This document shows positions 1-49,314 of a stretch of 64,000 bases of DNA, piece by piece. The position numbers were made by a program, and so were the translations under genes. Positions within the stretch are counted from its first letter, which is position 1. Each line of letters starts with the position of its first letter. Location of the stretch: contig FMBT01000332.1 of NCBI GenBank assembly GCA_900095095.1, forward strand, positions 62,001 to 126,000. Direction: 5' to 3'. The notes below the pieces were generated by a model. It had not been told where the DNA came from, ran no database searches, and worked only from the letters and a program-made list of their open reading frames with translations. This stretch comes from Fragilariopsis cylindrus CCMP1102. Lineage: Eukaryota; Bacillariophyta; Bacillariophyceae; Bacillariales; Bacillariaceae.

Positions 1-3000
1 CTTGGTGAAAGACTGGGCCCGAAGCTTGGTCTGGAACTAGGAGCAGTACTTGGGCCAGCACTTGGGACAGAACTCGGTGCGCCGCTCGGATCCAGACTAG
101 GAGCAGAGCTAGGAGAAGCACTCGGATCAACACTCGGTGCTGCGCTTGGATCCGCACTAGGATCAGAACTAGGAACCTCACTGGGAGCAAGGCTAGGGGC
201 AGCGCTCGGATCAAGACTTGGGATGGAACTGGGTGCAGCACTTGGCAATACACTTGGTTCCAAACTGGGCAAGCTACTTGGTGAAAGACTGGGACCTGCG
301 CTTGGGTCAAGACTTGGAGCAGAACTGGGGTCAAGACTTGGAGCAGAACTAGGACCACCACTTGGAAGACCGCTCGGATCAGAACTAGGACCACCACTTG
401 GAACTACACTTGGAAGACCGCTCGGATCAGAACTAGGACCACCACTTGGAACTACACTTGGAAGAGAGCTGGGCAAATTACTTGGCTCCCCGCTCGGATT
501 AGCACTCGGAATGGCACTCGGAATGGAACTTGGAATGGAGCTGGGGTCCAAACTAGGGACAGAACTCGGTGCACCACTCGGATCAGAGCTAGGTGAAAGA
601 CTAGGAACAGAACTTGGTGAAAGACTGGGACCTGCACTTGGGTCAAGACTTGGAACAGAACTCGGAAGAGAACTTGGTGAAAGACTGGGCCCGAAGCTCG
701 GTCTGGAACTAGGAGCAGTACTTGGGCCAGCACTTGGGACAGAACTCGGGTGCGTCGCTCGGATCCAGACTAGGAGCAGAGCTAGGAGAAGCACTCGGAT
801 CAACACTCGGTGCTGCGCTTGGATCGCACTAGGATCAGAACTAGGAACCTCACTGGGAGCAAGGCTAGGGGCAGCGCTCGGATCAAGACTTGGGATGGAA
901 CTGGGTGCAGCACTTGGCAATACACTTGGTTCCAAACTGGGCAAGCTACTTGGTGAAAGACTGGGACCTGCGCTTGGGTCAAGACTTGGAGCAGAACTGG
1001 GGTCAAGACTTGGAGCAGAACTAGGACCACCACTTGGAAGACCGCTCGGATCAGAACTAGGACCACCACTTGGAACTACACTTGGAAGACCGCTCGGATC
1101 AGAACTAGGACCACCACTTGGAACTACACTTGGAAGAGAGCTGGGCAAATTACTTGGCTCCCCGCTCGGATTAGCACTCGGAATGGCACTCGGAATGGAA
1201 CTTGGAATGGAGCTGGGGTCCAAACTAGGGACAGAACTCGGTGCACCACTCGGATCAGAGCTAGGTGAAAGACTAGGAACAGAACTTGGTGAAAGACTGG
1301 GACCTGCACTTGGGTCAAGACTTGGAACAGAACTCGGAAGAGAACTTGGTGAAAGACTGGGCCCGAAGCTCGGTCTGGAACTAGGAGCAGTACTTGGGCC
1401 AGCACTTGGGACAGAACTCGGTGCGTCGCTCGGATCCAGACTAGGAGCAGAGCTAGGAGAAGCACTCGGATCAACACTCGGTGCTGCGCTTGGATCTGCA
1501 CTAGGATCAGAACTAGGAACCTCACTGGGAGCAAGGCTAGGGGCAGCGCTCGGATCAAGACTTGGGATGGAACTGGGTGCAGCACTTGGCAATACACTTG
1601 GTTCCAAACTGGGCAAGCTACTTGGTGAAAGACTGGGACCTGCGCTTGGGTCAAGACTTGGAGCAGAACTGGGGTCAAGACTTGGAGCAGAACTAGGACC
1701 ACCACTTGGAAGACCGCTCGGATCAGAACTAGGACCACCACTTGGAACTACACTTGGAAGACCGCTCGGATCAGAACTAGGACCACCACTTGGAACTACA
1801 CTTGGAAGAGAGCTGGGCAAATTACTTGGCTCCCCGCTCGGATTAGCACTCGGAATGGCACTCGGAATGGAACTTGGAATGGAGCTGGGGTCCAAACTAG
1901 GGACAGAACTCGGTGCACCACTCGGATCAGAGCTAGGTGAAAGACTAGGAACAGAACTTGGTGAAAGACTGGGACCTGCACTTGGGTCAAGACTTGGAAC
2001 AGAACTCGGAAGAGAACTTGGTGAAAGACTGGGCCCGAAGCTCGGTCTGGAACTAGGAGCAGTACTTGGGCCAGCACTTGGGACAGAACTCGGTGCGTCG
2101 CTCGGATCCAGACTAGGAGCAGAGCTAGGAGAAGCACTCGGATCAACACTCGGTGCTGCGCTTGGATCTGCACTAGGATCAGAACTAGGAACCTCACTGG
2201 GAGCAAGGCTAGGGGCAGCGCTCGGATCAAGACTTGGGATGGAACTGGGTGCAGCACTTGGCAATACACTTGGTTCCAAACTGGGGCAAGCTACTTGGTG
2301 AAAGACTGGGACCTGCGCTTGGGTCAAGACTTGGAGCAGAACTGGGGTCAAGACTTGGAGCAGAACTAGGACCACCACTTGGAAGACCGCTCGGATCAGA
2401 ACTAGGACCACCACTTGGAACTACACTTGGAAGACCGCTCGGATCAGAACTAGGACCACCACTTGGAACTACACTTGGAAGAGAGCTGGGCAAATTACTT
2501 GGCTCCCCGCTCGGATTAGCACTCGGAATGGCACTCGGAATGGAACTTGGAATGGAGCTGGGGTCCAAACTAGGGACAGAACTCGGTGCACCACTCGGAT
2601 CAGAGCTAGGTGAAAGACTAGGAACAGAACTTGGTGAAAGACTGGGACCTGCACTTGGGTCAAGACTTGGAACAGAACTCGGAAGAGAACTTGGTGAAAG
2701 ACTGGGCCCGAAGCTCGGTCTGGAACTAGGAGCAGTACTTGGGCCAGCACTTGGGACAGAACTCGGTGCGTCGCTCGGATCCAGACTAGGAGCAGAGCTA
2801 GGAGAAGCACTCGGATCAACACTCGGTGCTGCGCTTGGATCTGCACTAGGATCAGAACTAGGAACCTCACTGGGAGCAAGGCTAGGGGCAGCGCTCGGAT
2901 CAAGACTTGGGATGGAACTGGGTGCAGCACTTGGCAATACACTTGGTTCCAAACTGGGCAAGCTACTTGGTGAAAGACTGGGACCTGCGCTTGGGTCAAG

Positions 3001-5486
3001 ACTTGGAGCAGAACTGGGGTCAAGACTTGGAGCAGAACTAGGACCACCACTTGGAAGACCGCTCGGATCAGAACTAGGACCACCACTTGGAACTACACTT
3101 GGAAGACCGCTCGGATCAGAACTAGGACCACCACTTGGAACTACACTTGGAAGAGAGCTGGGCAAATTACTTGGCTCCCCGCTCGGATTAGCACTCGGAA
3201 TGGCACTCGGAATGGAACTTGGAATGGAGCTGGGGTCCAAACTAGGGACAGAACTCGGTGCACCACTCGGATCAGAGCTAGGTGAAAGACTAGGAACAGA
3301 ACTTGGTGAAAGACTGGGACCTGCACTTGGGTCAAGACTTGGAACAGAACTCGGAAGAGAACTTGGTGAAAGACTGGGCCCGAAGCTCGGTCTGGAACTA
3401 GGAGCAGTACTTGGGCCAGCACTTGGGACAGAACTCGGTGCGTCGCTCGGATCCAGACTAGGAGCAGAGCTAGGAGAAGCACTCGGATCAACACTCGGTG
3501 CTGCGCTTGGATCTGCACTAGGATCAGAACTAGGAACCTCACTGGGAGCAAGGCTAGGGGCAGCGCTCGGATCAAGACTTGGGATGGAACTGGGTGCAGC
3601 ACTTGGCAATACACTTGGTTCCAAACTGGGCAAGCTACTTGGTGAAAGACTGGGACCTGCGCTTGGGTCAAGACTTGGAGCAGAACTGGGGTCAAGACTT
3701 GGAGCAGAACTAGGACCACCACTTGGAAGACCGCTCGGATCAGAACTAGGACCACCACTTGGAACTACACTTGGAAGACCGCTCGGATCAGAACTAGGAC
3801 CACCACTTGGAACTACACTTGGAAGAGAGCTGGGCAAATTACTTGGCTCCCCGCTCGGATTAGCACTCGGAATGGCACTCGGAATGGAACTTGGAATGGA
3901 GCTGGGGTCCAAACTAGGGACAGAACTCGGTGCACCACTCGGATCAGAGCTAGGTGAAAGACTAGGAACAGAACTTGGTGAAAGACTGGGACCTGCACTT
4001 GGGTCAAGACTTGGAACAGAACTCGGAAGAGAACTTGGTGAAAGACTGGGCCCGAAGCTCGGTCTGGAACTAGGAGCAGTACTTGGGCCAGCACTTGGGA
4101 CAGAACTCGGTGCGTCGCTCGGATCCAGACTAGGAGCAGAGCTAGGAGAAGCACTCGGATCAACACTCGGTGCTGCGCTTGGATCTGCACTAGGATCAGA
4201 ACTAGGAACCTCACTGGGAGCAAGGCTAGGGGCAGCGCTCGGATCAAGACTTGGGATGGAACTGGGTGCAGCACTTGGCAATACACTTGGTTCCAAACTG
4301 GGCAAGCTACTTGGTGAAAGACTGGGACCTGCGCTTGGGTCAAGACTTGGAGCAGAACTGGGGTCAAGACTTGGAGCAGAACTAGGACCACCACTTGGAA
4401 GACCGCTCGGATCAGAACTAGGACCACCACTTGGAACTACACTTGGAAGACCGCTCGGATCAGAACTAGGACCACCACTTGGAACTACACTTGGAAGAGA
4501 GCTGGGCAAATTACTTGGCTCCCCGCTCGGATTAGCACTCGGAATGGCACTCGGAATGGAACTTGGAATGGAGCTGGGGTCCAAACTAGGGACAGAACTC
4601 GGTGCACCACTCGGATCAGAGCTAGGTGAAAGACTAGGAATAGAACTTGGTGAAAGACTGGGACCTGCACTTGGGTCAAGACTTGGAACAGAACTCGGAA
4701 GAGAACTTGGTGAAAGACTGGGCCCGAAGCTCGGTCTGGAACTAGGAGCAGTACTTGGGCCAGCACTTGGGACAGAACTCGGTGCGTCGCTCGGATCCAG
4801 ACTAGGAGCAGAGCTAGGAGAAGCACTCGGATCAACACTCGGTGCTGCGCTTGGATCTGCACTAGGATCAGAACTAGGAACCTCACTGGGAGCAAGGCTA
4901 GGGGCAGCGCTCGGATCAAGACTTGGGATGGAACTGGGTGCAGCACTTGGCAATACACTTGGTTCCAAACTGGGCAAGCTACTTGGTGAAAGACTGGGAC
5001 CTGCGCTTGGGTCAAGACTTGGAGCAGAACTGGGGTCAAGACTTGGAGCAGAACTAGGACCACCACTTGGAAGACCGCTCGGATCAGAACTAGGACCACC
5101 ACTTGGAACTACACTTGGAAGACCGCTCGGATCAGAACTAGGACCACCACTTGGAACTACACTTGGAAGAGAGCTGGGCAAATTACTTGGCTCCCCGCTC
5201 GGATTAGCACTCGGAATGGCACTCGGAATGGAACTTGGAATGGAGCTGGGGTCCAAACTAGGGACAGAACTCGGTGCACCACTCGGATCAGAGCTAGGTG
5301 AAAGACTAGGAACAGAACTTGGTGAAAGACTGGGACCTGCACTTGGGTCAAGACTTGGAACAGAACTCGGAAGAGAACTTGGTGAAAGACTGGGCCCGAA
5401 GCTCGGTCTGGAACTAGGAGCAGTACTTGGGCCAGCACTTGGGACAGAACTCGGTGCGCCGCTCGGATCCAGACTAGGAATAACCT
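1..5486 (-). repeat. 672-bp coding tandem repeat, about 8.2 copies
   Basis: The unit is exactly 672 bp (224 codons) and recurs at constant spacing, for example the same word begins at 2469, 3141, 3813 and 4485. Copies are almost identical: I see one substitution (near 4640), a few differences in the outermost copies, and three single-base indels (extra G at 748-750, missing T at 825/826, extra G at 2283-2286). Within the unit there is a finer 9-12 bp periodicity coding PSxxPS on the minus strand. The unit has no stop in several frames, so antisense frames also stay open. The left end lies outside the window. Confidence 0.95.
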
Positions 5487-8477
5487 GACATTTCTTTAAG
5501 CATGTAGCAGGACAAAAGAACTTGATCTTTGGTGAATCCTTATCCTTTTTTTTGCAACGTCTGTCAGGTTTTGCAGCTACCCAGACTGCACAATTTTTCT
5601 TCTGCTTATTTTTGAATCGATATTTATCGTCGTCAGTACAGTCTATGGATGGAGCTACACTTTGGTCTATTGCAAGATTAGATGCCTGAGGGGCTGGCGA
5701 AGGAGCTGTTTTGCTAGTTGGAAAAGAAGTGATGCTGTCGGAGTCAGTCGTAGGCATGGGAATACTTCTGTAAATAACAGTAAAAAATCACACAGAAGGG
5801 AGTAACAACAACAACAGAATTAGTCCACGTATTGAAGCACGAAAAATAAAAAACAAAGGAACAAGCAAAAAGGCAGTGCATCATATTGCTGCATAGTAGT
5901 TTCTTACCCTTCTGGGATCAAAACTCCATCAATAATGTGAATAATTCCATTGTTGGCAAGAATGTTTGGAATAATGATCCTTTTGTCATTGACAAATTCT
6001 CCATTCTCCTTTGTACTTTTAAATGTTAATTTCTCTCCTTGTAATGTGGTCAAAATAAGGCCATCTCGTAGGTCGGTGTCAGCATATATACCTTTCAGAA
6101 TATGGTAGGAGAGAATAGATGAAAGTCGATCAGCAGATATGGAAGTTCCACCTCCAAAAAGTGAGTCCAGAAAAGCTGCATTTGTTGGTGCAAATACAGT
6201 ATAGGGACCGGCTTCTGATAAAGTCCCACTAAATCCAGCTTGAACAACTAAATCAACCAAAGTTGATAGATCAGAGGTCCCCTCGGCAAGTTTCATAATA
6301 CTGTTGCTAAACCAAGATGGAAGAATAACATCGTCAATAGCATGGATGATACCGTTTATGGCATCAATATCAGCCTCAACAACTTCTGCATCTGTATTAA
6401 CAAACATACCAGTACCACCACCTTTAGTAATCGATACAGTGAAGTAAATGTCATCTTCGCTAAGAGTAGTGACACTAAGGCCATCCGTGATATCTGAGGA
6501 AGGAACAACTGTAGGAAGGACATGATGGTACAATAGATCTTCCAGGTGATTTTGCCATTCTTCAGTTTTCAAGTTTACTTCAACATCAGATGCAGCTTCA
6601 GTAAGAGTTTTAAATGCATCATTGGTAGGGGCAAATAGAGTGATTCCTTGGCCATTGCTGAGTGTTTCAACAAGATCTGCTTGAGAAAAATATCCTAGAA
6701 GAGATGAGAAGTTATCTGGATCAACGATGATGATTTCAAGCACTGTTTCACTTCTGTAGAAAACAGCAAAAATAACACAGGAGGGAGCAACAACAACAAC
6801 AAAATTAGAACATGAATTGACGCACGAAGGATAAAAAGGCAGTGGAGCTCATAGCTGCATGGTTTCTTACCCTTCTGGGATGCATCTTTTTTCGCATTCG
6901 ACAGGACAGAAGAATCTGACAGCTTTTCCTGTAATACGGTCATTTTTCTTGCATCGCTTGCCAGGGTCTGCCGAAACCCAGGTAGCACAGTCCTTGTCTT
7001 GGTTATTATTGAAACGGAAAGTTTTACAGTCTTCGCATTTTTCACGGTCATCGCATAGTGAAGATATTGGAGGCGATGTGGGCGATGCAGTAGGTACAGA
7101 ATCTGAATCTATGATAGGATTATCGATAGGTGCAGATGATGGATTACCGGTCGGAGATAACGTAAAAGGCGATAACACTGCTTCAGTCGGATTTGTTGTA
7201 GGGGATCGAGTCGGGAAAGATACTGGCGACATAGTGGGAGATCGAGTCTTCTTTCTTTGACTCATTTTATTCCCTTCGCCTGATGGATTACCGGTCGGAG
7301 ATAACGTAGAATGCGACAACATTGCTTCAGTCGGATTTGTTGTAGGGGGTCGAGTCGGGAAAGATACTGGCGACATAGTGGGAGATCGATTGTTCATTCT
7401 TTGACTCATTCTATTCCCTTCGCCTTTGCCTTTTTTCTTCCCGCTTTTGTTGCTCTTCGAATTCTTTCTTTGACTCATTTTATTCCCTTCGCCTTTGCCT
7501 TTTTTCTTCCCGCTTTTGTTGCTCTTTGCGCTTTTGATGTTATTCGAACCCTTCTTTGAACTCTTTTCGTTTCCGCCTCCGTCTCTATCACCCGTCCCTT
7601 CACTCTCTGCGCTTTTGATGTTATTCGAACCCTTCTTTGAACTCTTTTCGTTTCCGCCTCCGTCTCTTTCACCCGGTCCTTCACTCTTTGCACTTTTGAT
7701 GCTATTCGAATCCTTCTTTGAACTCTTTTCGTTTCCGTTTCCGCCTCCGTCTCTTTCACCCTTGCCTTTTCCCATCCCTTCACTCTTTGCGCTTTTGATG
7801 CTATTCGAACCCTCCTTTGAACTCTTTTCGTTTTCGGTTCCGCCTCCGTCTCCTTTGCCCTTGCCCTTCCCTTTGCCCGTCCCTTCACTCTTTGCGCTTT
7901 TAATGCTATTCGAACCCTCCTTTGAACTCTTTAGTTCGCGTTCTAATCTATCGTCCTTCCTATAGTTGCCGTCAGCATTGACACCATCGTATTCATATTC
8001 ATGGACACTACCGATGCCGTCGACAGCTTTTGTTGTAGCAGTATATCTTCGTAACAACTGTCGGTAGATTTCTTTGACGAACAAAAACAAATCTTTTGTG
8101 GTGGTGGTTGTGGACAAATTATCGCTGCTGTTGCTGTTAGTATTAGTATTACTATTAGTATTAGTGTTAGTGATGGTATTAATATTAGTGTTGATGGTAT
8201 CAGTTGTAATGGGACGAATATTTTCAATAGAACGAAAAAATTTACTGGTAGAAAGGATATTGGCAAGAAAGAAACCTGATCCAAGAACCACTCCTGTTAA
8301 AAACAGCGATAAAAGAAACAGCAGCGAATTACTTCTTCCAGTACAACGCGATCGATATTCTTGTTGTTGATGATCATCATCATCATCATCGTCGTCGTCA
8401 TCATCATCCTCGCCTTCATGACGTTGCTTTCTGTCGTCTTCATCACGGCGGGGCCTAAAAAAAGTTGGGATGAACAT
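1..8477 (-). CDS. Membrane-anchored FAS1 / Cys-rich / PSxxPS-repeat protein, 3 exons, C-terminus beyond window
   Basis: I join three minus-strand exons: 8477-6871, 6753-5908 and 5767 to beyond base 1. Both introns are GT-AG and phase 2, and the frame closes exactly (...CIPEG-SETVLEII... and ...VLIPEG-SIPMPTT...). Exon 1 starts at ATG 8477 and encodes an acidic cytosolic-looking head with a poly-Asp run, one hydrophobic anchor (about residues 48-73, no cleavage site evident), a basic Lys/Gly/Ser linker, PTxxPT-type motifs and an 8-Cys domain ending CPVECEKRC. Exon 2 carries two fasciclin (FAS1) domains, each with the TLFAPTNDAF / TVFAPTNAAF and NGIIHxID signatures. Exon 3 repeats the Cys-rich domain (6 Cys, CPATCLKKC) and continues into hundreds of PSxxPSxxPS residues. 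FAS1 domains mediate cell adhesion, and PS-rich stretches are common in diatom surface proteins, so a cell-wall or adhesion role is inferred. Single-base indels near 2284, 825 and 749 break the repeat frame. Confidence 0.8.
5768..5907 (-). other. Intron 2 of the FAS1/PS-repeat gene, paralogous to intron 1
   Basis: Donor GG|GTAAGAAAC at 5907 and acceptor TTTACAG ending at 5768; phase 2. The 140-bp intron aligns along most of its length with the 117-bp intron 1 of the same gene, sharing a purine-rich start, a run of CAACAACAAC and the segment around GGCAGTG. Confidence 0.85.
6754..6870 (-). other. Intron 1 of the FAS1/PS-repeat gene
   Basis: Donor GG|GTAAGAAAC at 6870 and acceptor TTCTACAG ending at 6754; phase 2. 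Removing it joins the first Cys-rich domain to the FAS1 exon. The bases on both sides of the splice (CCAGAAGG and AAGT) are the same as at intron 2. Confidence 0.85.
7417..7935 (-). repeat. Imperfect coding repeats in the Lys/Gly/Ser linker
   Basis: A unit of roughly 65-100 bp coding for KSSKxGSNSIKSAKSEGxG followed by GKGKG or RDGGGN is repeated about five times, then decays into SNKSGKKKGKGEGNKMSQR copies. A second duplicated block (7130-7400) codes PTMSPVSFPTR...NPTEA. The result is a highly basic, length-variable spacer between the membrane anchor and the first Cys-rich domain. Confidence 0.75.
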
Positions 8478-19945: not shown

Positions 19946-20743
19946 TTATGCTACCTGTAGCCCCCGTAGTCCCCGTCGTGTTTGTGTGTATGGTGTCTGA
20001 GTGATGGTCGCCATTTGGAGGGTGACTGCCGTCTGTGAGAAGATACGACCGTTCAAAGATGAACCAGTAATGAATTTTACACCTGTCTGGCACAAGATGA
20101 CACCCTCCATATGCGAACCTGCGGCGACAACAACCTCTTGGGCAACCTGCCAGAAGATATTTTCAGCCTTTGCACCGCCACTAAGAATCACACTGGTGCT
20201 CCCGGCTTGCTTAACATTCTTCGATGTCTGAATGATGAAGACATCCGTTGCGTTTCCACTGAAGGTGAGGTCACCATTGGTGATGAGAACATCTACATCG
20301 AAAGTGTAGACACCCGATGTCAACGTTGTACCACCGATTTCGCCTCCTCCGAGATTTAGGTTGTCGATGCCATTAGTGGCAGTGGTGTCACGTCCTGCGG
20401 CGTCATTGTACGCAGCCTTCATCTCGCCGACCGCGGTGATCAAATTAGAGCCATCGGTGTAGTCCGACGCTTTGACTTTTCCTACGACCTGGGTAGACGT
20501 CGCAAATGTGTCCGAACTATCAATGATCAAGCTAAAGCCAGTAATAGCGGCCGAAGTGATGGGCGAGACGGCTATGTTGCCGGTAACAGTCGATTTTGGT
20601 ACGGTGGAGATACCAGTCTTTGCAAGGATAGCGAAGTCGCCGGCGGCATTTCCAAGTTTGACGGGTTGGACGTTGATGGATGCGCCTTTGATAGCACTGA
20701 CCATGACGGCCACAGATAGTAAAAAGAGATTCAAGTTCATCAT
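19946..20743 (-). CDS. Ice-binding protein (DUF3494), copy 1
   Basis: This single-exon gene codes 265 residues with an N-terminal secretion signal (about residues 1-20, MMNLNLFLLSVAVMVSAIKG). The rest is one DUF3494 ice-binding domain: GDFAILAKTGISTVP, TVTGNIAVSP, GGGEIGGTTLTSGVYTF, VFIIQTSKNV, GGAKAENIFWQVAQEV and the final ITGSSLNGRIFSQTAVTLQMATIT. Such proteins form a beta-solenoid that adsorbs to ice, inhibiting recrystallisation and shaping brine pockets in sea ice. They are known from polar diatoms, bacteria and fungi, and horizontal transfer is well established for the family. The tail TRRGLRGLQVA is shared with the divergent copy at 21690. Base composition is visibly richer in G+C than that of the neighbouring genes. 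Ends at TAA/TAG side near 19946; start ATG 20743 is followed by a second ATG. Confidence 0.95.
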   Translation of the reverse strand: MMNLNLFLLSVAVMVSAIKGASINVQPVKLGNAAGDFAILAKTGISTVPKSTVTGNIAVSPITSAAITGFSLIIDSSDTFATSTQVVGKVKASDYTDGSNLITAVGEMKAAYNDAAGRDTTATNGIDNLNLGGGEIGGTTLTSGVYTFDVDVLITNGDLTFSGNATDVFIIQTSKNVKQAGSTSVILSGGAKAENIFWQVAQEVVVAAGSHMEGVILCQTGVKFITGSSLNGRIFSQTAVTLQMATITQTPYTQTRRGLRGLQVA

Positions 20744-40236: not shown

Positions 40237-43200
40237 ATGAATTTTTTGTTGAACGCAATTGAGGGCAATGTCGGTAACGACATAGGAGACGATGATGATG
40301 GAGGATGGGGATCCGATGAAGAATTGGATTTATCCGATGATGGATACGACGACGATGATAGTAATAGTAATAGCGATGCAATGAATCTTCCTCCACAGCA
40401 CCAGTACCAGCACCAGCAGCAACATGGAAACAATCCTCCTCCACCGCCACCACCGCCACCACCTCCTCCACAACAACAAGGACAAGGTCCAGGACAAGAC
40501 GAATACAACGATAGTGGTAACATTCAGATGGGTGGAGGCATGTTTATGGGTCAGTTGACACGATTTTTGGATGTTGTAGCTCCCCAAAATATTGACGACG
40601 AAGATGATGATGGCGATGATGACGATGACGATGACGATCAAAACAGGATCGGTGATGGATGGCAAGACGACGACGATGAAGTGGACGTCGAAGGATGGGA
40701 AGATGATGATGCGCAAGACATCTTGAGTATGTTAGACACCGATGATGACGTAGCTGACAACAATAATAATATAACGACGATAACGAATGATACTTCTACG
40801 ACAGTACATACATCGCAAGCGGTAATTGCACCGTCTCATCAATCTCATACTGCCATGATTCCTCCACCGCCACCCCCTCCACCACCACCACTACCTCCTC
40901 CAATTCCAATCGAACATGTTCCTGTTGTTGATGCTGTTCACGAAAATCCGTCTGTCTCTTTCGGTGAAGAAACATTTTCCACTACGGCAGCTATAGGACT
41001 AGCTTCAAATGACATAACAACAAATGATATTGGCAACGATGATGGTATTGATAATGGAAACAATGATGACGGTAATGGATGGGACGACGACGATGGTGAT
41101 GATGGTCTTATGTTCGATGATGTAGATGTTGATGTTGACGTCGAAGGAGAAGTAGATACAACAAAGGAAAAAGAATCTGACGAATCACAAATAATGGTCG
41201 ATATCATTCCATCGCCTTCTCCACTATCACTTGTTCAATCTGCTATAACAGAGGATGATAACGACGACGCATTTGCTTTGAAAGACAATGGGGATGGTTG
41301 GGGAGGTGATGATGATCTTGACGTTGATGTTGATATTAATAATATTGGTGTTGACCTTGACGTTGATGACTCAAATGTGGTAGATCATATTCCGCCTCCT
41401 TCGCCATCGTCGAGAATAGGAGGCCCAAACACCAATGATGCTACACATGGAGACGATGATATCTCTCAAGATGATACCCTTTCTATGGCAAATTCTCGTA
41501 GTCAACAAAATGCTTTTCGGCCAACATCGACTTCCACCATTGAAGACGACGACGACGACGATGATGATGATGATGATGTGTCCGAAGATGTTGCAGTTCG
41601 ATCTGTTTCTACAGTCGGTAGTGGTAGTGTTGGTGGTGGTCGATTCGCATCAACGAAACCACGAAAGGTCGTAGATTGTACCCCCCGTGTATACCGAGGG
41701 ATCACAGGAGATGCTTCGCTGTTAGTTTCTGGACATACGTCCGTGGGAGAATCTTTAGAATCAATCGATGAAGCGAATGAGGGAGATTACGAAAATGATA
41801 TCGACATTGACAATGCCGAGACGTTGCGAAGATTAAATGCATCGTTTGGTGTTGTCGTTCCCGCCGCTGCCGCTGATAGAACATCAGCAGAAGATAGTAC
41901 AACTCCTCGAACTATGGAATCAGGATGGGGAGCCCTACGATCGCATTCTGTTGAGCGGGCAATATCATCAGAAATCCCGTTCGGATCGGCTACTACACCT
42001 ACCGCTAATAATAGTAATAATCATAATAGACTAAGTGGATCGCATACCAATGAAAGTAATAATAATAACGATGAGGAGGGAGATTTGCTCCCATTGGTCG
42101 ATCAAACTCCAGGAGTATCAGTGGCACTGAACGACGATAACGATGTTCGACAACCACGACCGTCATCGCGAAGATCGATGACATCTGTAGAAGTTTTGAG
42201 TGTTTCGTCAGAGGAAGGTGACTTAGGAGAATCAGATGTTGGCGTTGACGACATTTTGGAAGAATTGTACGGTCCCATGGTCGATCAAATTCCTCCTACA
42301 CCAGGAGGAGATGACGAGACTGCGACGGCTCTCAAAACATTTTCGGGACAGGCTTCTGTAGAAGGTGAAGGAAGTACCGTGGTTGGCCAAGCCGAAAACT
42401 TGGACGTTGAAAATGATATTCGTGAAGACGATGCAATGAGCGCTGAAGACGACGAGGACGATGAAGATGGCGTTGATGAATCCGGATGGGGTAGCACTTT
42501 GGAGTTTGAATTCGACAATCGAAGTCTTCTTTCGGGTCTTCCACTTCCAGTCGTCGATGAGACCCAGCATTTAGTGGATCATGTTCCTGTAGATAAATTA
42601 TTCCGGGGAGGAGGACGAGGTGTTGTTGGTGGTGCTGTTAAAGGAGGTGGCGCGAATTCCATGGACGTATCGATCACTTCCAGTCGAGGTCGAGGTGATG
42701 ACAATGTTACTGACGACGATGGACCTAATACATCAAACTTCGGTCCCATCGTTGATCATACCCCCTCTGTGACTATACGTGGTGTAGGAGCAAGAGGTGC
42801 TAGTACACAGTCGATAACAACGTCTGTGGCTACCGCGGTGAGTGGACTTGAAAGAGACATAAAGGAAGATGACGACATGGATAACACGACTGCCGATGGC
42901 GGAAGCGTGAGCTCGGCTGGAGCTGATGATGACCTAGACGAGAATGACATCGAAGATGACCATATTGTGGACCACATACCGAAGGATAAAAATCAAAACG
43001 TGGCACTAGATGCTTCCGTACGAGTTCTGGTTGACAAGGACGACGATATGACTCAAGTTGATACTATCGTGGAAGATGCTGTTTTAGATTTTGGTCCCAT
43101 TGTTGATCAAACTCCATTTGTACGGGTCACATCCGGTTTCTCAGTAGGAGCATCCATGATGGCCCAAGGAAATCGAGTCGACGATAACAATACAGCTACC

Positions 43201-46200
43201 CTGGGAAGCGTTTCTTTGGAAGATAATTTGTTGCAAGACGACGAATCCGGTTGGGATGACGATGGGACTGATCTCGACGATCTTACGGCCGGCGCCGATG
43301 AAGTACAGATCCTGAATGATACTGTTGCAACAAAAGAAGAAAATAATCTCGTAGATCATATTCCCAAGAAAAGATTTAGTAGGCCCATTGACGGCTCGAC
43401 TATGGTCCTCGTAGATCCATTGGATGCTGATTCCGAAGTTGATGATGCTGACGATGACACTGCTGGAAATGCTCGAACCGACAGATTCGGTCCTATTGTA
43501 GATCACACTCCGGCTCCTCTATCTACACCGATATCAATCGCTACATCTATGATAAATGGTGCCGGCAGTGCTATTCGTCCTGATGATAACGATATAGATG
43601 GTTCTGGAACGTGGTTTGGAGCGTCGACACTAGGAGGGATGTCAAGTGCTGCAGGAGATCGATCCATTGCTGATGATGACGATGTTAGTGGAACGGGATG
43701 GGATGACGATGATCAAGTTTTAGAAGATTTAGCGTCTCCCGCTGCAGCTCCGCGGCCGGTACAAGATCCTGAAAATATTTTGGTTGATCATGTTCCTTCT
43801 CTTGCATCGCCTCGTCATGTTGATACGAATGCGTCCATGGCGGTGGCAGTTGATCCTTCGGTAGTTTCCTCCCAAGCTAATGACGATAATACGCAAGACG
43901 GCAATATTGGAGGAGGGATTTTTGGTGCCGTTGTTGACCACACCCCAAGTATTGAAGGTACATCTCATCGTTCTGCTGACAATAGTTCCACAGTAACAGG
44001 AATGGCAACCAATACAAAACGGGAAGACGAAATGGACGAAACAACGTGGCAAGGTGGTGTGTCTGCTCAAGGAGAAGGATGGGATCAAGATGATCCAGAA
44101 CTCGATGAGCTCGCTAGCAATAACGAAGATGAAGCAGTGGTAGACCATGTACCGGAACGACCCGAGTCGAGAATAGGAGACCCTTCTTTGATCGTTGCTG
44201 CCAATCCATCTGAAATGAGTTCACAAGTCGAAGATTTGAACCAGGATGAAAACAATTTTGGTCCTGTCGTTGACCAGACGCCTTTGGAACATGTTCTTCC
44301 TCAACCAGCTGTTGGATCGACTGTTGTTGCAATGCCTTCTGTCTTAAACGACGATTTAGACGAAGGAGACGCCGACGAACAAAGTGCTGAGGATGCAAGA
44401 ATTCCTGGCGAATGGGAGGATCATCTACCAAATCCACAGTCTGAAAATGATACAGAAAATAGAAGTGAGCAACTTGTCGATGTCGTACCTCCTCCACCCG
44501 AGCAAAGAGTTGCGGATGTAGTTAGGGACGCTTCATCAGAAATGGCAACAGTCGATGATAAATCATCAGTCGTTCCAGCAGATGATCCCAAAGAAGACGA
44601 ATTTGGACCTGTTGTTGACCATACTCCAACGGGAGAAAATAACGATGGTGATCAGACATCCAACGGAGGATCTCTTGCTAGCAGCGATGACGACGATGAC
44701 CATGATAAGAAGCCTGCAGCGGACCAAAATAATGTAGATTCTGTCGAACCTATGTGTTCCATTGAAAGCACAGACAAAGAAGATGGTCTCGACGAAGATG
44801 AGTTTGGACCTGTAGTCGATCAGTTACCGGCCGTGTCTTCAAAATCGTCAATTGCTCCGTCAAAAAGTGGCTCCACCGCTGATGCAAAGGCGACTGTGTC
44901 TGAAGACGACTTGAATACACGTGATGGTTGGGACGACGATACAATCGATAATATTGATCCATCATCTCCAAGTAATACGAGTTACCGTAAAAGTAACTCT
45001 GTCACATGGGACGATAACGTCAACGATAATGTCAACGATAATGTCAACGATAAAGAAGATGACGCTCAGAAGGCAGCGAACACATCCAATCAGCTGGATG
45101 GCATTTGCGATTCAGGTTTCTTCACCGCGGAGATGGTTGATACTTCAAAAGTGAACTTGGACGAAACAAAATACTATGATTCCGAACCACCTGTTGAGAT
45201 GAATGGTTGGAGTGACGACGGTCTCTGTATCGCCGATGATGATACGCCTCCGTCCACTCCTCGAACGAGTGCAGTTTTCAAAACCCAAACAGCAACTAAT
45301 GAATGCCCAAGTTGCTCAAATGCAGATACTACGGATTGTCCATGTATACAGGCACTGATTGAAACGAATGGAGAAAATAATGATATGGTTGGACTTTGGA
45401 AGACACCAGAAGGTGATTCTGTGAAAGTTAACTTGCAAAAACTTTTACAGAATGAGACATCTAAGCGACTTCTCATAGAAAAGGAATCACAGGCATTTCG
45501 ACAAACGATTGAATCGTTGAAGCAAGCAAAAGACACTTTGGTCAACGTAGGAGAGACGCAAATGGGTCGTGAAAATGAAATGATGTCGGCAATCTCTAAA
45601 TGGCAAGAAGCTAACGGAGAATTGTCTTCCGAAAATGGAAAGCTATCCGAAAATGTTTCGGTTTCCCACAACGAGATTGAAAAGTTATCCGAAGATGTTT
45701 CGAAATTGTCTACCGAAAATGGAAAGCTGTCAGATGATATTTTTAAGTTTCGCAACGAGAATGGGACGTTTTCTTCTGAAATTGTAAAGTTATCCAAAGA
45801 CCTTTCGAAGCTTCAAAGTGAGAACGGAGAGCTATCCGAAGATCTTTTGAAGTTAGAAAGCGAATGCACACAGCTACGAAATATAAATGATATCTTGACG
45901 AATGAAATGGAGGCAGTCCGGGGATCAATGACTCAACTCGAAGACGAGAAGTCGCAAATACAATCACGAGAAACTGCTCTTTCTGCAGAAATATCCAATT
46001 TGAAGTCTTCCCTTGAGAAACAAATCCAACAGTCAACATCTGATGCCAGTCTCCAAGACGAAATTAGATCCATTCAATCGGAGCTATCCTCTAAAGTAAA
46101 TGAGTGTTCACAACTCAATTCGCAACTGAGTCGGGTGCAAGAGAAATTGACGAAGTCAGAAGCTCAAAATTTTAAACACACGAAAGATCTTGGCAAGATC

Positions 46201-49200
46201 ACCAAAGACCATATGCATAAAATCTCCGAATTACAAAAGAAACTCGATTTGCAGAAGAAGCAGCTAGAAGAATCTAAATTACTCAATGAAAGATCGATCG
46301 CTGATTTGAAAAAGAGATTGTCAATAGAAGCTGCTACGAACCAAAATATCCAACGAGAGAACGATTCTTTTACACTACAGAAAAAGAATCTCCAAACGCA
46401 ACATGAAAATTCCGCCCGCATCCACCAACAAGATTTGTCCCAGAAGGAAGCGAAAATAAAGTCCCTCGATATCAAATTGAAAAGTGTCGAGAACGAAAAG
46501 ATACAACTTTTCAATGAAATAAAAAATTATACTCAACAGATAGAGAGATTCTCTTCTATTTCTACACAGCACGAATCTATTTCGAGGGAACGACATGTAT
46601 TGAATGAGGCCCTTGTGGATAGTAAGACTTATATTGCTGGACTACAAAAGCAATTTGACGACCTTAGATCTTCGTTGGGATTGAATTCTTCCAAACCAGA
46701 ATTGGTGTTGAATGCACTAAAAAAAGATAGAAGTCAGCAATTACAAGAAATCGAATCTTCGCAAAATCAAATCACCGCATTGAAACAAGAAAAAGCCAAT
46801 CAATTGCAAGAAATAGAATCTTCACTGAATCAAATCAACATGCTGAAACAAGAAAGATCTAACCAACTGCAAGAAATTGAGTCTTCAAAGAATCAAATAA
46901 CCGACCTTACCCGCAGAATTGACGAAATTGAGTCCGAAAAGAATTCTATACAGGCACAGTTTGACGAATTTCGTAAGTCCAACGCGAGCTCACAAAATAC
47001 GTCTGCAGTTTCGGCTTTGAATACCATCAAGGAACAAGCAAAGTTGAAGAAAATGCAGGGCGAAGTTCAACAACTGCGTCTACAATTACAGAATGCTACA
47101 AACGGGATGCAGAACAGCGATAACGAGTGTACGCGACTGTCTGGTAGATGTACAGAATTAGAGGCCGAGATTGCACGACTTGGTCAATTAGCTGCCCAAA
47201 CTGACAGACTTCAACAAGATTTACTACAGTTCCAACAGGTAAACGAGTCACAAGGACAGCGCATTCAGGTTCTGGAGAGCAATCTATCAGAGAACGAACG
47301 CATGCTGTCATTGAAAGATAAAGAAATTACCAACTTGAATGAACTTCAAAATTCAAATCAGTCGAACGCTGTAGGAATTGAAAACGAGAAGAAAAATTTG
47401 CTTGCTAAGCTACAAGAAATGAATGCTAGGATATTTGATTTAGAATCTGAACGTGGTAATCTTGCAAATGATAATGAAGATAAAAATTCGACGCTGGATG
47501 GTTTGACTGAACAAATAACAGGATTGACCAATGAGAGAGACCAGTTCCAGAACGAGAAAGACGCGTTGGAAGAAGAAAGCGATGAGATGCTTGTGCAGTT
47601 TGGACTATTGAACGAAGAGATGATTGCAAAGGAAGCAGAGACGATAAGGGTCCAAGAAGAGCTAACACAACTCCATGACGAACGCGAGCGCTACGAGCAT
47701 GAGAATCAAGATTTACGTAGTAAGATTCAAGCGCACGAGGAAAAGCTTCAAGATGCAATCAGAAAGTCAGAACAGAAGTACGAGGAAGAACTTCGATCTA
47801 AAGATGACGAGCTTCAATCGAAAGATGACGATCTCCGATCGAAAGACACAGAACTCCAGAATCATCTCCAGGTAGCTCGTAGAAAATCCCAAACATACGA
47901 GGATCAGCTCCACGAGTCTGAAGAGAAATTGAATGCACTCATCAAGGAATCCGAAGAAATGATGAAGAATTCTGGAAATGTAGACGATACTCAAAAGAAA
48001 CTGATGGAGTCGAATACTGCCTTGAGAGACCGACTAAAGGAATTGTCTTCTGAGCAATCAGTTGCAGTTGGTCAAATGCAAGTCCTAGAATCCGAGAAAC
48101 TAGATCTGAACGGAAAAGTTGAAGGTTTACAAGCTCTTGTAGACGAACTTATTGCCTCTTTTGAAACTAAGGAAGGAAAACTTCAGTCGATCATTGATGA
48201 AATAAATTCTCAAAAGATAGAGATTGCCAATAAATCTCAAATTCAAGAAATCGAAGTTGCTCGACTGAACAAAGAACTGGAAGTATCAAAAGGTGTTGCC
48301 GAAGAATCTACAGCACTTCGTCGTAGTCTCGCTGATCTGGATAGTAAATTATCTGATCAAGATCGTTTTCTTCTTCAAAAGGATGCTGCATTACAGGATC
48401 TTCGTAACCAACTTGAGGATTCCGGTGAAGCACCGGTAGAGAGCGCTGAAACGGAAATTCTAAGACAAACTGTTCAAGACTTCGAGGCCAAATCAGCGAA
48501 TGACAAGAACCAACTTCAAGAAATGGGATTCATTTGTGATGAAACACAGCAAGAATTAACGTCAACCATGGAACAGCTACAGGTTTCAGAGGATCTAGCA
48601 CAACAATTACAGAACGATCTACAATCCAAGGAGGATATTGAATCTACAAATCGAATGCTGGAATCCCGTCTGGATCAACTCGAGCAAGAACTTTTGTCCA
48701 CACGAACCGAAGAGTCGAAGTATCGTACCGAGGCTTCCGATCTTAGACAAGAAGTAGCTGATCTCGAGACGAAACCTAGAGATTCCTTGCATCAATACGA
48801 ACAGTCAACGAAGGAACAGAGTGGCGAAGTATCCGCCGAACTCGAGGCTCTTCGGCAGGAGGTCGAGTCTCTCAAGCGTGATCAAACGACATTGTCGTCC
48901 GCCGAGGCCAGTGCACGAGAGGAAGCAATGGAACGAGAATTATATGCGCTACGAAATCAAATGGCACAAAAGAATGATCAAATTGCAAGTATGGACCAAA
49001 GATTTTTATCGGATTTATCTCATTCGAACCAAGAAATAGCAACAGTCACAGTCGAGTTAGAGAAATTGAAATCGATCGCATTGAAGCCTACTTCCTCACG
49101 TGTATTAGAGCTTACCCGTGATCAAGCTGAAAACGTTGATCAGATGCGTTCACAAGTAGTGTCGTTAGCACATGCCTTAGAAAATTCCGAAAATCGACGT

Positions 49201-49314
49201 GCGGAAGTTATCGAGAAGATCGAAACAGAACGTCAAGCTCATGCCGAAAGTCTACGTCGTATGTCTGTAAACGTGAAACGATTCTATTCAACGATGAAAA
49301 TGAGTGATATATGA
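40237..49314 (+). CDS. Giant acidic VDHxP-repeat and coiled-coil protein, 3025 residues
   Basis: One uninterrupted exon of 9 kb. Residues 1 to about 1680 are very acidic with Asp-rich GW(D)DDD patches, two polyproline runs (about 70-85 and 208-227) and about 18 copies of VD-[HQIVC]-[ITVL]-P coded between about 41198 and 44830. From about 42500 these alternate between a type with basic followers (LVDHVP..R or K) and a type preceded by FG (FGPIVDHTP). A short Cys cluster CPSC...CPC lies near residue 1690. From about 1720 to the end the protein is heptad-rich coiled coil, including LSxENGKLSED-type repeats and three copies of NQLQEIESSxNQI. The C-terminus is NVKRFYSTMKMSDI. The plan suggests a long tether or scaffold, as for golgins and similar proteins, but no GRIP or other named end domain is visible. 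The function is unknown. Confidence 0.85.
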   Translation: MNFLLNAIEGNVGNDIGDDDDGGWGSDEELDLSDDGYDDDDSNSNSDAMNLPPQHQYQHQQQHGNNPPPPPPPPPPPPQQQGQGPGQDEYNDSGNIQMGGGMFMGQLTRFLDVVAPQNIDDEDDDGDDDDDDDDQNRIGDGWQDDDDEVDVEGWEDDDAQDILSMLDTDDDVADNNNNITTITNDTSTTVHTSQAVIAPSHQSHTAMIPPPPPPPPPPLPPPIPIEHVPVVDAVHENPSVSFGEETFSTTAAIGLASNDITTNDIGNDDGIDNGNNDDGNGWDDDDGDDGLMFDDVDVDVDVEGEVDTTKEKESDESQIMVDIIPSPSPLSLVQSAITEDDNDDAFALKDNGDGWGGDDDLDVDVDINNIGVDLDVDDSNVVDHIPPPSPSSRIGGPNTNDATHGDDDISQDDTLSMANSRSQQNAFRPTSTSTIEDDDDDDDDDDDVSEDVAVRSVSTVGSGSVGGGRFASTKPRKVVDCTPRVYRGITGDASLLVSGHTSVGESLESIDEANEGDYENDIDIDNAETLRRLNASFGVVVPAAAADRTSAEDSTTPRTMESGWGALRSHSVERAISSEIPFGSATTPTANNSNNHNRLSGSHTNESNNNNDEEGDLLPLVDQTPGVSVALNDDNDVRQPRPSSRRSMTSVEVLSVSSEEGDLGESDVGVDDILEELYGPMVDQIPPTPGGDDETATALKTFSGQASVEGEGSTVVGQAENLDVENDIREDDAMSAEDDEDDEDGVDESGWGSTLEFEFDNRSLLSGLPLPVVDETQHLVDHVPVDKLFRGGGRGVVGGAVKGGGANSMDVSITSSRGRGDDNVTDDDGPNTSNFGPIVDHTPSVTIRGVGARGASTQSITTSVATAVSGLERDIKEDDDMDNTTADGGSVSSAGADDDLDENDIEDDHIVDHIPKDKNQNVALDASVRVLVDKDDDMTQVDTIVEDAVLDFGPIVDQTPFVRVTSGFSVGASMMAQGNRVDDNNTATLGSVSLEDNLLQDDESGWDDDGTDLDDLTAGADEVQILNDTVATKEENNLVDHIPKKRFSRPIDGSTMVLVDPLDADSEVDDADDDTAGNARTDRFGPIVDHTPAPLSTPISIATSMINGAGSAIRPDDNDIDGSGTWFGASTLGGMSSAAGDRSIADDDDVSGTGWDDDDQVLEDLASPAAAPRPVQDPENILVDHVPSLASPRHVDTNASMAVAVDPSVVSSQANDDNTQDGNIGGGIFGAVVDHTPSIEGTSHRSADNSSTVTGMATNTKREDEMDETTWQGGVSAQGEGWDQDDPELDELASNNEDEAVVDHVPERPESRIGDPSLIVAANPSEMSSQVEDLNQDENNFGPVVDQTPLEHVLPQPAVGSTVVAMPSVLNDDLDEGDADEQSAEDARIPGEWEDHLPNPQSENDTENRSEQLVDVVPPPPEQRVADVVRDASSEMATVDDKSSVVPADDPKEDEFGPVVDHTPTGENNDGDQTSNGGSLASSDDDDDHDKKPAADQNNVDSVEPMCSIESTDKEDGLDEDEFGPVVDQLPAVSSKSSIAPSKSGSTADAKATVSEDDLNTRDGWDDDTIDNIDPSSPSNTSYRKSNSVTWDDNVNDNVNDNVNDKEDDAQKAANTSNQLDGICDSGFFTAEMVDTSKVNLDETKYYDSEPPVEMNGWSDDGLCIADDDTPPSTPRTSAVFKTQTATNECPSCSNADTTDCPCIQALIETNGENNDMVGLWKTPEGDSVKVNLQKLLQNETSKRLLIEKESQAFRQTIESLKQAKDTLVNVGETQMGRENEMMSAISKWQEANGELSSENGKLSENVSVSHNEIEKLSEDVSKLSTENGKLSDDIFKFRNENGTFSSEIVKLSKDLSKLQSENGELSEDLLKLESECTQLRNINDILTNEMEAVRGSMTQLEDEKSQIQSRETALSAEISNLKSSLEKQIQQSTSDASLQDEIRSIQSELSSKVNECSQLNSQLSRVQEKLTKSEAQNFKHTKDLGKITKDHMHKISELQKKLDLQKKQLEESKLLNERSIADLKKRLSIEAATNQNIQRENDSFTLQKKNLQTQHENSARIHQQDLSQKEAKIKSLDIKLKSVENEKIQLFNEIKNYTQQIERFSSISTQHESISRERHVLNEALVDSKTYIAGLQKQFDDLRSSLGLNSSKPELVLNALKKDRSQQLQEIESSQNQITALKQEKANQLQEIESSLNQINMLKQERSNQLQEIESSKNQITDLTRRIDEIESEKNSIQAQFDEFRKSNASSQNTSAVSALNTIKEQAKLKKMQGEVQQLRLQLQNATNGMQNSDNECTRLSGRCTELEAEIARLGQLAAQTDRLQQDLLQFQQVNESQGQRIQVLESNLSENERMLSLKDKEITNLNELQNSNQSNAVGIENEKKNLLAKLQEMNARIFDLESERGNLANDNEDKNSTLDGLTEQITGLTNERDQFQNEKDALEEESDEMLVQFGLLNEEMIAKEAETIRVQEELTQLHDERERYEHENQDLRSKIQAHEEKLQDAIRKSEQKYEEELRSKDDELQSKDDDLRSKDTELQNHLQVARRKSQTYEDQLHESEEKLNALIKESEEMMKNSGNVDDTQKKLMESNTALRDRLKELSSEQSVAVGQMQVLESEKLDLNGKVEGLQALVDELIASFETKEGKLQSIIDEINSQKIEIANKSQIQEIEVARLNKELEVSKGVAEESTALRRSLADLDSKLSDQDRFLLQKDAALQDLRNQLEDSGEAPVESAETEILRQTVQDFEAKSANDKNQLQEMGFICDETQQELTSTMEQLQVSEDLAQQLQNDLQSKEDIESTNRMLESRLDQLEQELLSTRTEESKYRTEASDLRQEVADLETKPRDSLHQYEQSTKEQSGEVSAELEALRQEVESLKRDQTTLSSAEASAREEAMERELYALRNQMAQKNDQIASMDQRFLSDLSHSNQEIATVTVELEKLKSIALKPTSSRVLELTRDQAENVDQMRSQVVSLAHALENSENRRAEVIEKIETERQAHAESLRRMSVNVKRFYSTMKMSDI
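41198..44835 (+). repeat. Array of VD-H/Q-x-P motifs in the acidic half
   Basis: FGPIVDHTP-type motifs start at about 42739, 43090, 43486, 43921, 44257, 44602 and 44803, giving spacings of roughly 200-435 bp; LVDHVP-type motifs lie between them at about 42571, 42964, 43351, 43783, 44137 and 44476. GWDDD elements precede most LVDHVP motifs. The DNA between motifs has diverged, so selection appears to keep the peptides rather than the nucleotides. Confidence 0.85.

Follow-up and report, generated by a model that had tools for sequence, protein, structure and literature searches.

What would a diatom cell do with a protein of more than three thousand residues that carries a short VDHxP-like peptide eighteen times? 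The question is raised by a 64,000-nucleotide stretch of the Fragilariopsis cylindrus CCMP1102 genome (contig FMBT01000332.1, positions 62,001 to 126,000 of the forward strand; this whole stretch is called the window, and positions are counted in it), where one open reading frame (ORF) joins an acidic N-terminal arm bearing the motif array to a long C-terminal rod. We consider, at a probability of roughly 0.6, that this giant protein is a large cytoplasmic scaffold or tether in which a multivalent docking arm is mounted on the rod. The main parts, with residues given as amino acids (aa), are:

40237 to 49314, forward strand: the complete protein, an intronless 3025-aa ORF; ATG start, with insertions and deletions (indels) between alleles in frame
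40237 to 41193, forward strand: acidic N-terminal part; two poly-Pro runs and five patches of Gly-Trp/acidic type (Trp 24, 142, 154 and 282, with 355 just beyond)
41194 to 44829, forward strand: motif array of 18 VDxxP motifs, aa 320-1531, from an expression search against shuffles
45454 to 49311, forward strand: coiled-coil rod, aa 1740-3025, from proline count and hydrophobic period

A preliminary description of the locus, made from the letters alone, had noticed about 18 short motifs, and this number was confirmed. The expression [VIML][VIM]D.[TVILQMF]P matched the whole 3025-aa protein 18 times, always within aa 320-1531, against a mean of 0.16 and a maximum of 3 in 2000 shuffles of aa 1-1700; the narrower VD[HQ][TVIL]P occurred 15 times, against a shuffle mean of 0.02 and a maximum of 1. 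Asp at position 3 and Pro at position 6 are fixed by the search expression, and their invariance is a matter of definition, whereas position 2 was Val in all 18 copies although Val, Ile or Met was permitted. The copies fall into two classes, split by the preceding residues (an FGP prefix) and by position 5, which is Thr in six of eight B copies and Val or Ile in eight of ten A copies. Class A (n = 10), [LIVM]VD[HQICV][VIT]P, is LVDH[VI]P-like and has no aromatic residue; class B (n = 8), [FY]G[PA][IVM]VD[HQ][TIL]P, is [FY]GP[IV]VD[HQ]TP-like. All copies lie on the forward strand:

41194 to 41211, forward: A motif MVDIIP, aa 320
41377 to 41394, forward: A motif VVDHIP, aa 381
41668 to 41685, forward: A motif VVDCTP, aa 478; one-base difference in the other allele
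42094 to 42111, forward: A motif LVDQTP, aa 620; the alternating run starts
42268 to 42294, forward: B motif YGPMVDQIP, aa 678-686; the sole match to the strict gamma-ear consensus (see below)
42571 to 42588, forward: A motif LVDHVP, aa 779
42739 to 42765, forward: B motif FGPIVDHTP, aa 835-843
42964 to 42981, forward: A motif IVDHIP, aa 910
43090 to 43116, forward: B motif FGPIVDQTP, aa 952-960
43348 to 43365, forward: A motif LVDHIP, aa 1038
43486 to 43512, forward: B motif FGPIVDHTP, aa 1084-1092
43780 to 43797, forward: A motif LVDHVP, aa 1182
43921 to 43947, forward: B motif FGAVVDHTP, aa 1229-1237
44137 to 44154, forward: A motif VVDHVP, aa 1301
44257 to 44283, forward: B motif FGPVVDQTP, aa 1341-1349
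44473 to 44490, forward: A motif LVDVVP, aa 1413
44602 to 44628, forward: B motif FGPVVDHTP, aa 1456-1464; the alternating run ends
44803 to 44829, forward: B motif FGPVVDQLP, aa 1523-1531

The order reads AAAABABABABABABABB. The alternation that had been described for the array thus applies to 14 consecutive motifs (aa 620-1464) and not to the first three or the last, and the basic residues placed after LVDHVP follow some A copies but not all. Since 3694 of 100,000 label shuffles contained as many A/B switches over the whole order, the unit structure set out below is a better guide to the alternation than the switch test.

We searched the genome as a 67.9 Mb assembly of 818 contigs, in which the window lies within the contig labelled C439. 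A second copy of the gene, on contig C670, showed 96-99% identity over the arm and 95-98% over the remainder, and we read it as the other allele. Searches of the assembly for paralogs found none for the arm at E<=0.001 and none for the rod at E<=1e-5, with only the best candidates scored, and by these comparisons the scaffold gene is single-copy, one gene and one allele. Because 11 of the 12 between-allele indels within the ORF were multiples of three, while many in the upstream non-coding stretch were not, the reading frame is real and the window copy needs no intron. The lone frame-breaking difference is a single C within the C run of the motif at aa 478 in the C670 allele (L020; window-equivalent position 41680); it could reflect either a fault in the assembly or a true lesion of that allele.

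The motif copies are old and constrained at the residue level. Pairs of motif codons for the same residue used the identical codon in 210 of 596 cases, against 232.8 expected from the codon usage of the gene, which indicates that synonymous sites are saturated and that motif identity is held at the protein level; codons have been randomised while residues were kept, and the conservation described for the motifs was borne out. Between the alleles, the motif cores differed by no residue in 131 codons and by two synonymous changes. The spacers differed by 30 residues in 1434 codons (ratio of non-synonymous to synonymous polymorphism, pN/pS, 0.18) and the rod by 35 residues in 1322 codons (pN/pS 0.26).

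Alignment of the seven A-B units gave seven invariant columns, each of them part of an A or a B motif; the stretch from A to B showed a weak consensus, R-x2-D-x-S-x2-V-x-V-D. Spacers resembled one another more than composition-keeping shuffles did, with z scores of 6.6 (A to B) and 9.4 (B to A), and more than shuffles within 8-residue windows, with z scores of 4.7 and 5.0; in each case 0 of 500 shuffles reached the observed mean score. After removal of the Gly-Trp patches, a z score of 4.4 remained for the B-to-A spacers. Because the spacers are weakly homologous above both full and local shuffles, the array grew through duplication of a (Trp patch, A, B) unit, about 110-160 aa long, and is now a degenerate tandem repeat. 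The contrast drawn earlier between conserved motifs and drifting spacers therefore holds as a matter of degree, since the spacers are themselves weakly homologous and constrained.

This origin by duplication is also what would be expected if the array were a low-constraint repeat expansion with no docking function. The poly-Asp, poly-Pro and Asn runs of the protein are prone to slippage, and the one-base frame break, if real, would make one copy of the gene dispensable. Such an expansion is hard to square with motif codons that were randomised around kept residues, with the lack of any residue change in the motif codons between alleles, and with a frame preserved by nearly all ORF indels, and we regard it as very improbable and already disfavoured.

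The arm (aa 1-1700) contains 16 Trp residues, 12 of them preceded by Gly and most set among small and acidic residues. Five of the 15 gaps between them measure 111-128 aa, and the closest pairs are 11 and 12 residues apart. A Trp stands ahead of the A motif in six of the seven A-B units, the exception being the unit at A910. Argonaute hooks are GW/WG repeats that fill the Trp pockets of Argonaute, and patches of this composition and with such close pairs could make the protein an RNA-silencing or granule scaffold in a genome that does carry a Piwi-domain gene (on C306, in two neighbouring pieces that each exceed the cut-off). That explanation leaves VDHxP unaccounted for, and GW is commonplace in acidic low-complexity sequence; we think it quite unlikely.

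Every 150-residue block of aa 1-1650 is acidic, in agreement with the preliminary description, and a charge-hydropathy plot places aa 1-600 and aa 600-1560 on the disordered side; the acidic arm is probably disordered. The coiled-coil rod of about 1300 residues that had been proposed is likewise supported. It contains four prolines in 1286 aa, and its hydrophobic period of 3.5 residues exceeds shuffles at z = 11.5, compared with z = 0.0 for aa 1-600 and z = 1.3 for aa 600-1560. Directly before the rod lies a cysteine cluster, CPSC-x7-CPC (window 45304-45345), a possible metal site.

The absence of a described family for this layout is in keeping with our searches. At E<=1, Pfam gave five weak matches over the whole protein, all below their cut-offs (ATG16 25.5 bits, FAZ1_C 24.7, TMF_DNA_bd 18.4, DUF1843 11.5 and LPP 10.5), and none of seven repeat units matched any family (0 families for 7/7 members); a PDB sequence search with the protein returned nothing at E<=0.01. 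The TMF_DNA_bd match, at aa 1812-1870, raises the idea of a TMF-related tether of the golgin type, with the arm serving to capture vesicles, and a long coiled-coil rod with a flexible arm does resemble the golgin layout. That match stands below its cut-off of 35 bits and is outscored by two coiled-coil families unrelated to TMF. TMF_TATA_bd (PF12325), moreover, was not listed for the protein at E<=1, unlike what TMF membership would lead one to expect, and was found over the cut-off in another gene (C89, 34.4 bits with neighbours), with a further match on C679 at 28 bits, below the 29.1 cut-off. Membership of the TMF family is rejected on these grounds and a TMF-related tether seems unlikely, while a golgin-like role for the scaffold may still apply.

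If the protein is a docking scaffold, the rod (aa ~1740-3025), presumably dimeric, would hold out the acidic and disordered arm (aa 1-1700). Each of the seven A-B units in the arm would present one LVDH[VI]P (A) and one FGP[IV]VD[HQ]TP (B) motif, and in six units a Trp-acidic patch precedes A. A single motif, bound as an extended peptide, would have weak affinity for its partner, a folded domain of which a membrane coat or compartment carries many copies; many motifs jointly would then provide avidity, so that coat or compartment machinery is recruited or clustered. We infer the disorder, the dimerisation, the binding mode and the role in membrane traffic from features of the sequence. More than one type of ligand is likely, because two motif classes and the Trp patches occur in one repeat unit. 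The multivalent docking array of the preliminary description thus survives as old, constrained motifs in an acidic arm on a rod, but its "identical ligands for one partner" do not, since the FGP prefix and position 5 set A and B apart. Among the roles it had listed, a vesicle or coat scaffold remains the best, and a nuclear-pore-like filament is disfavoured.

The docking mechanism is supported by analogy, because FAM21 and Eps15 share the layout of an avidity scaffold. The tail of FAM21 (WASHC2) holds 21 LFa motifs that bind the retromer coat (PMC4110399), the LFa motif being L-F-[D/E]3-10-L-F (PMC10899256), and so resembles our protein as an arm with about 20 short motifs for a membrane coat. 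Eps15 is an endocytic scaffold with fifteen DPF motifs (PMC4731787), comparable as an array of short acidic motifs. The Dsl1 lasso and its tryptophan motifs for delta-COP (PMC7145657, PMC4868844) place Trp in acidic disordered tether sequence, as the scaffold arm does. In aa 1-1700, none of the corresponding expressions was found: LF[DE]3-10LF, DPF/DPW and W-x(1-6)-W, a spacing chosen for this test, each gave 0 matches, the smallest Trp spacing being 11, and FxFG/GLFG, tried for an FG nucleoporin-like filament, also gave 0. The EH domain was not among the Pfam matches at E<=1. Membership of the FAM21/retromer, Eps15-type and delta-COP di-Trp systems is rejected accordingly. Eps15 also has a coiled coil.

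These expressions belong to an incomplete list of 12 ligand classes, for which the arm was compared with 300 shuffles; the LFa, DPF and Trp expressions came from the papers cited above. The clathrin box and FFAT-like expressions had no match. SUMO-interacting motifs numbered 12, three of them in cores (shuffles 15.8), calcineurin PxIxIT two, both in cores (1.9), LC8 TQT one, outside the cores (0.3), SxIP one (0.5) and COP1-like VP[DE] one, in a core (2.2). The LC3-interacting region, [FWY]xx[LIV], had 13 matches, seven starting in B cores, against a shuffle mean of 9.2 and a maximum of 19, and an aromatic residue is lacking from A motifs. None of the 12 classes tried accounts for the VDHxP core common to both motifs, and a new motif-domain pair is kept open for this reason.

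VDHxP could be a ligand class of its own for an undescribed partner other than an adaptor ear, with FGP as an affinity extension and the Thr-Pro of B switchable by a proline-directed kinase; it would dock by the same mechanism as in the scaffold reading, so that the odds of the two overlap, and we place it only slightly short of even. The class preferences at position 5 and the uniform Val at position 2 point this way, as does the absence of a class, among those tried, that fits A and B together. The B-type DNA pattern, moreover, had 14 forward matches in the 67.9 Mb genome, seven in this gene and seven in its allele, with 0 in a reversed control; the FGAV copy (aa 1229) falls outside the B-type patterns used genome-wide. 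Against it stand the definitional invariance of positions 3 and 6 and the incomplete list of classes. The kinase switch is conjectural; [ST]P, with 20 occurrences over aa 1-1700, is no more frequent than in shuffles (18.6), and eight of the 20 fall in motif cores. A more specific form, in which VDHxP is a new class of short linear motif read by a diatom peptide-binding domain and displayed 18-fold in (Trp patch, A, B) units on the rod, as a lineage-specific multivalent organiser of a coat or compartment with phospho-regulated Thr-Pro copies, we put forward tentatively, as something that may well prove wrong.

Under the scaffold reading, the partner of B that we favour is the ear of AP-1 gamma-adaptin, a candidate that is unproven and on balance doubtful, even as the most likely of those named. 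The consensus for gamma-adaptin-ear ligands is PsiG(P/D/E)(Psi/L/M) (PMC7714068). When Ile or Val was allowed at its last place, seven of eight B copies matched, against 0.31 per shuffle. The motifs stand in an acidic context, and a gamma-type ear is encoded in this genome, where PF02883 had four matches, with gamma-adaptin at two loci (C90 and C597; L022, L021) read as alleles. The other two we take, by their features, to be one alpha-adaptin and one beta-adaptin. Of ten PDB matches to the genome's gamma-ear, the six best were AP-1 gamma1 ears (top match E 4.3e-08) and four were GGA sequences. Aligned with what we take to be the human pocket residues, the ear keeps A753, K756, P765 and K797 and has Lys for R795, Met for L762 and Val for R793. 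An ENTH locus (C353; L041) has, in an adjoining frame, DDDFGDFSD, which fits the strict consensus, whereas SEFGAF there does not; the two frames are presumably spliced into one epsin-like gene. Because the genome encodes both a gamma-type ear and an ENTH locus with such a motif, this cell probably makes use of ear-ligand pairs of this kind. No strict motif was found near the ENTH loci on C322 and C451, the surroundings of three of the four ENTH matches having been examined. A VHS (GGA) profile had no match in the genome, and since control genomes gave none either, absence of GGA is not shown by this search. One ENTH-family match (L042, L043) shares a stretch with a long frame that looks DENN-like by eye, an unusual combination if real.

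The accessory proteins of AP-1 and GGA (rabaptin-5, epsinR, gamma-synergin and aftiphilin) share with the scaffold the acidic surroundings and tetrapeptides of the form aromatic-Gly-Pro/Asp/Glu-hydrophobic. Nearest in form to the B motif would be that of rabaptin-5, FGPL, which is likewise combined with coiled coils. The scaffold differs in its seven or eight copies, in Ile or Val at the last place in 7/8, in the VDHTP extension and in its A motifs, and neither Pfam nor the PDB sequence search found homology to these proteins.

Several observations weigh against the scaffold reading or against its favoured partner. As it stands, the strict gamma-ear consensus is satisfied by one of eight B copies (YGPM), with a shuffle mean of 0.13. 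A motifs cannot, by their sequence, be gamma-ear ligands, because they have no aromatic residue, and the gamma-ear core of four residues does not include the Val, Asp and Pro of VDxxP. At the spacer rate, about 2.7 residue changes would be expected in the motif cores, so that the observed zero is only suggestive; the Trp patches carried two changed residues in 112 codons between alleles, and the spacers are constrained no less than the rod, so the target of selection may extend beyond the motifs. Finally, the charge-hydropathy plot places the rod on the disordered side too and is hence a blunt instrument.

Relatives of the array were sought more widely. The DNA pattern for FGP[IV]VD[HQ]TP had 0 matches in each of the virus and prokaryote contig collections, which says little about eukaryotes. 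Protein-guided scans of viral contigs with aa 620-1554 returned 600 pattern stretches without a tblastn relative, a weak result given their low-complexity acidic patterns, and with the last 200 aa three stretches and no relative. In 5.39 million open-licence papers, the strings VDHTP and DFGPLV occurred 0 times, as did FGPLV in the subset examined, and no description of such a diatom golgin or tether protein was found among titles and abstract starts. Homology is a poor guide to the tethers and coat accessory proteins of stramenopile algae, since their arms are disordered. With its 18 constrained docking peptides, the single-copy scaffold would offer a cheap bait for a new motif-domain pair or for a tether specific to the lineage. 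If AP-1 proves to be the partner, the scaffold would add to the gamma-ear ligands an array of high valency, the counterpart of FAM21 among retromer ligands.

Elsewhere in the window, the reverse strand of positions 1-5757 encodes a Pro-Ser (PSxxPS) repeat protein built of highly similar 672-bp tandem repeats and matching the Pfam PT disordered repeat; because of the repeat, both strands are open over long stretches there. Positions 5904-6743 and 6867-8477, also on the reverse strand, encode a fasciclin protein (two stretches) and, next to it, a protein that appears to have a membrane segment, with repeats and a Cys-rich C-terminal end resembling the start of the PSxxPS protein. This neighbourhood is possibly a cluster of surface or wall proteins. 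In the genome as a whole, 27 stretches matched the silicon-transporter family Silic_transp, all over the cut-off. A protein of ice-binding-like type (PF11999, E 2.6e-57) is encoded at positions 19949-20743 (reverse strand), as would be fitting in a diatom of cold waters.

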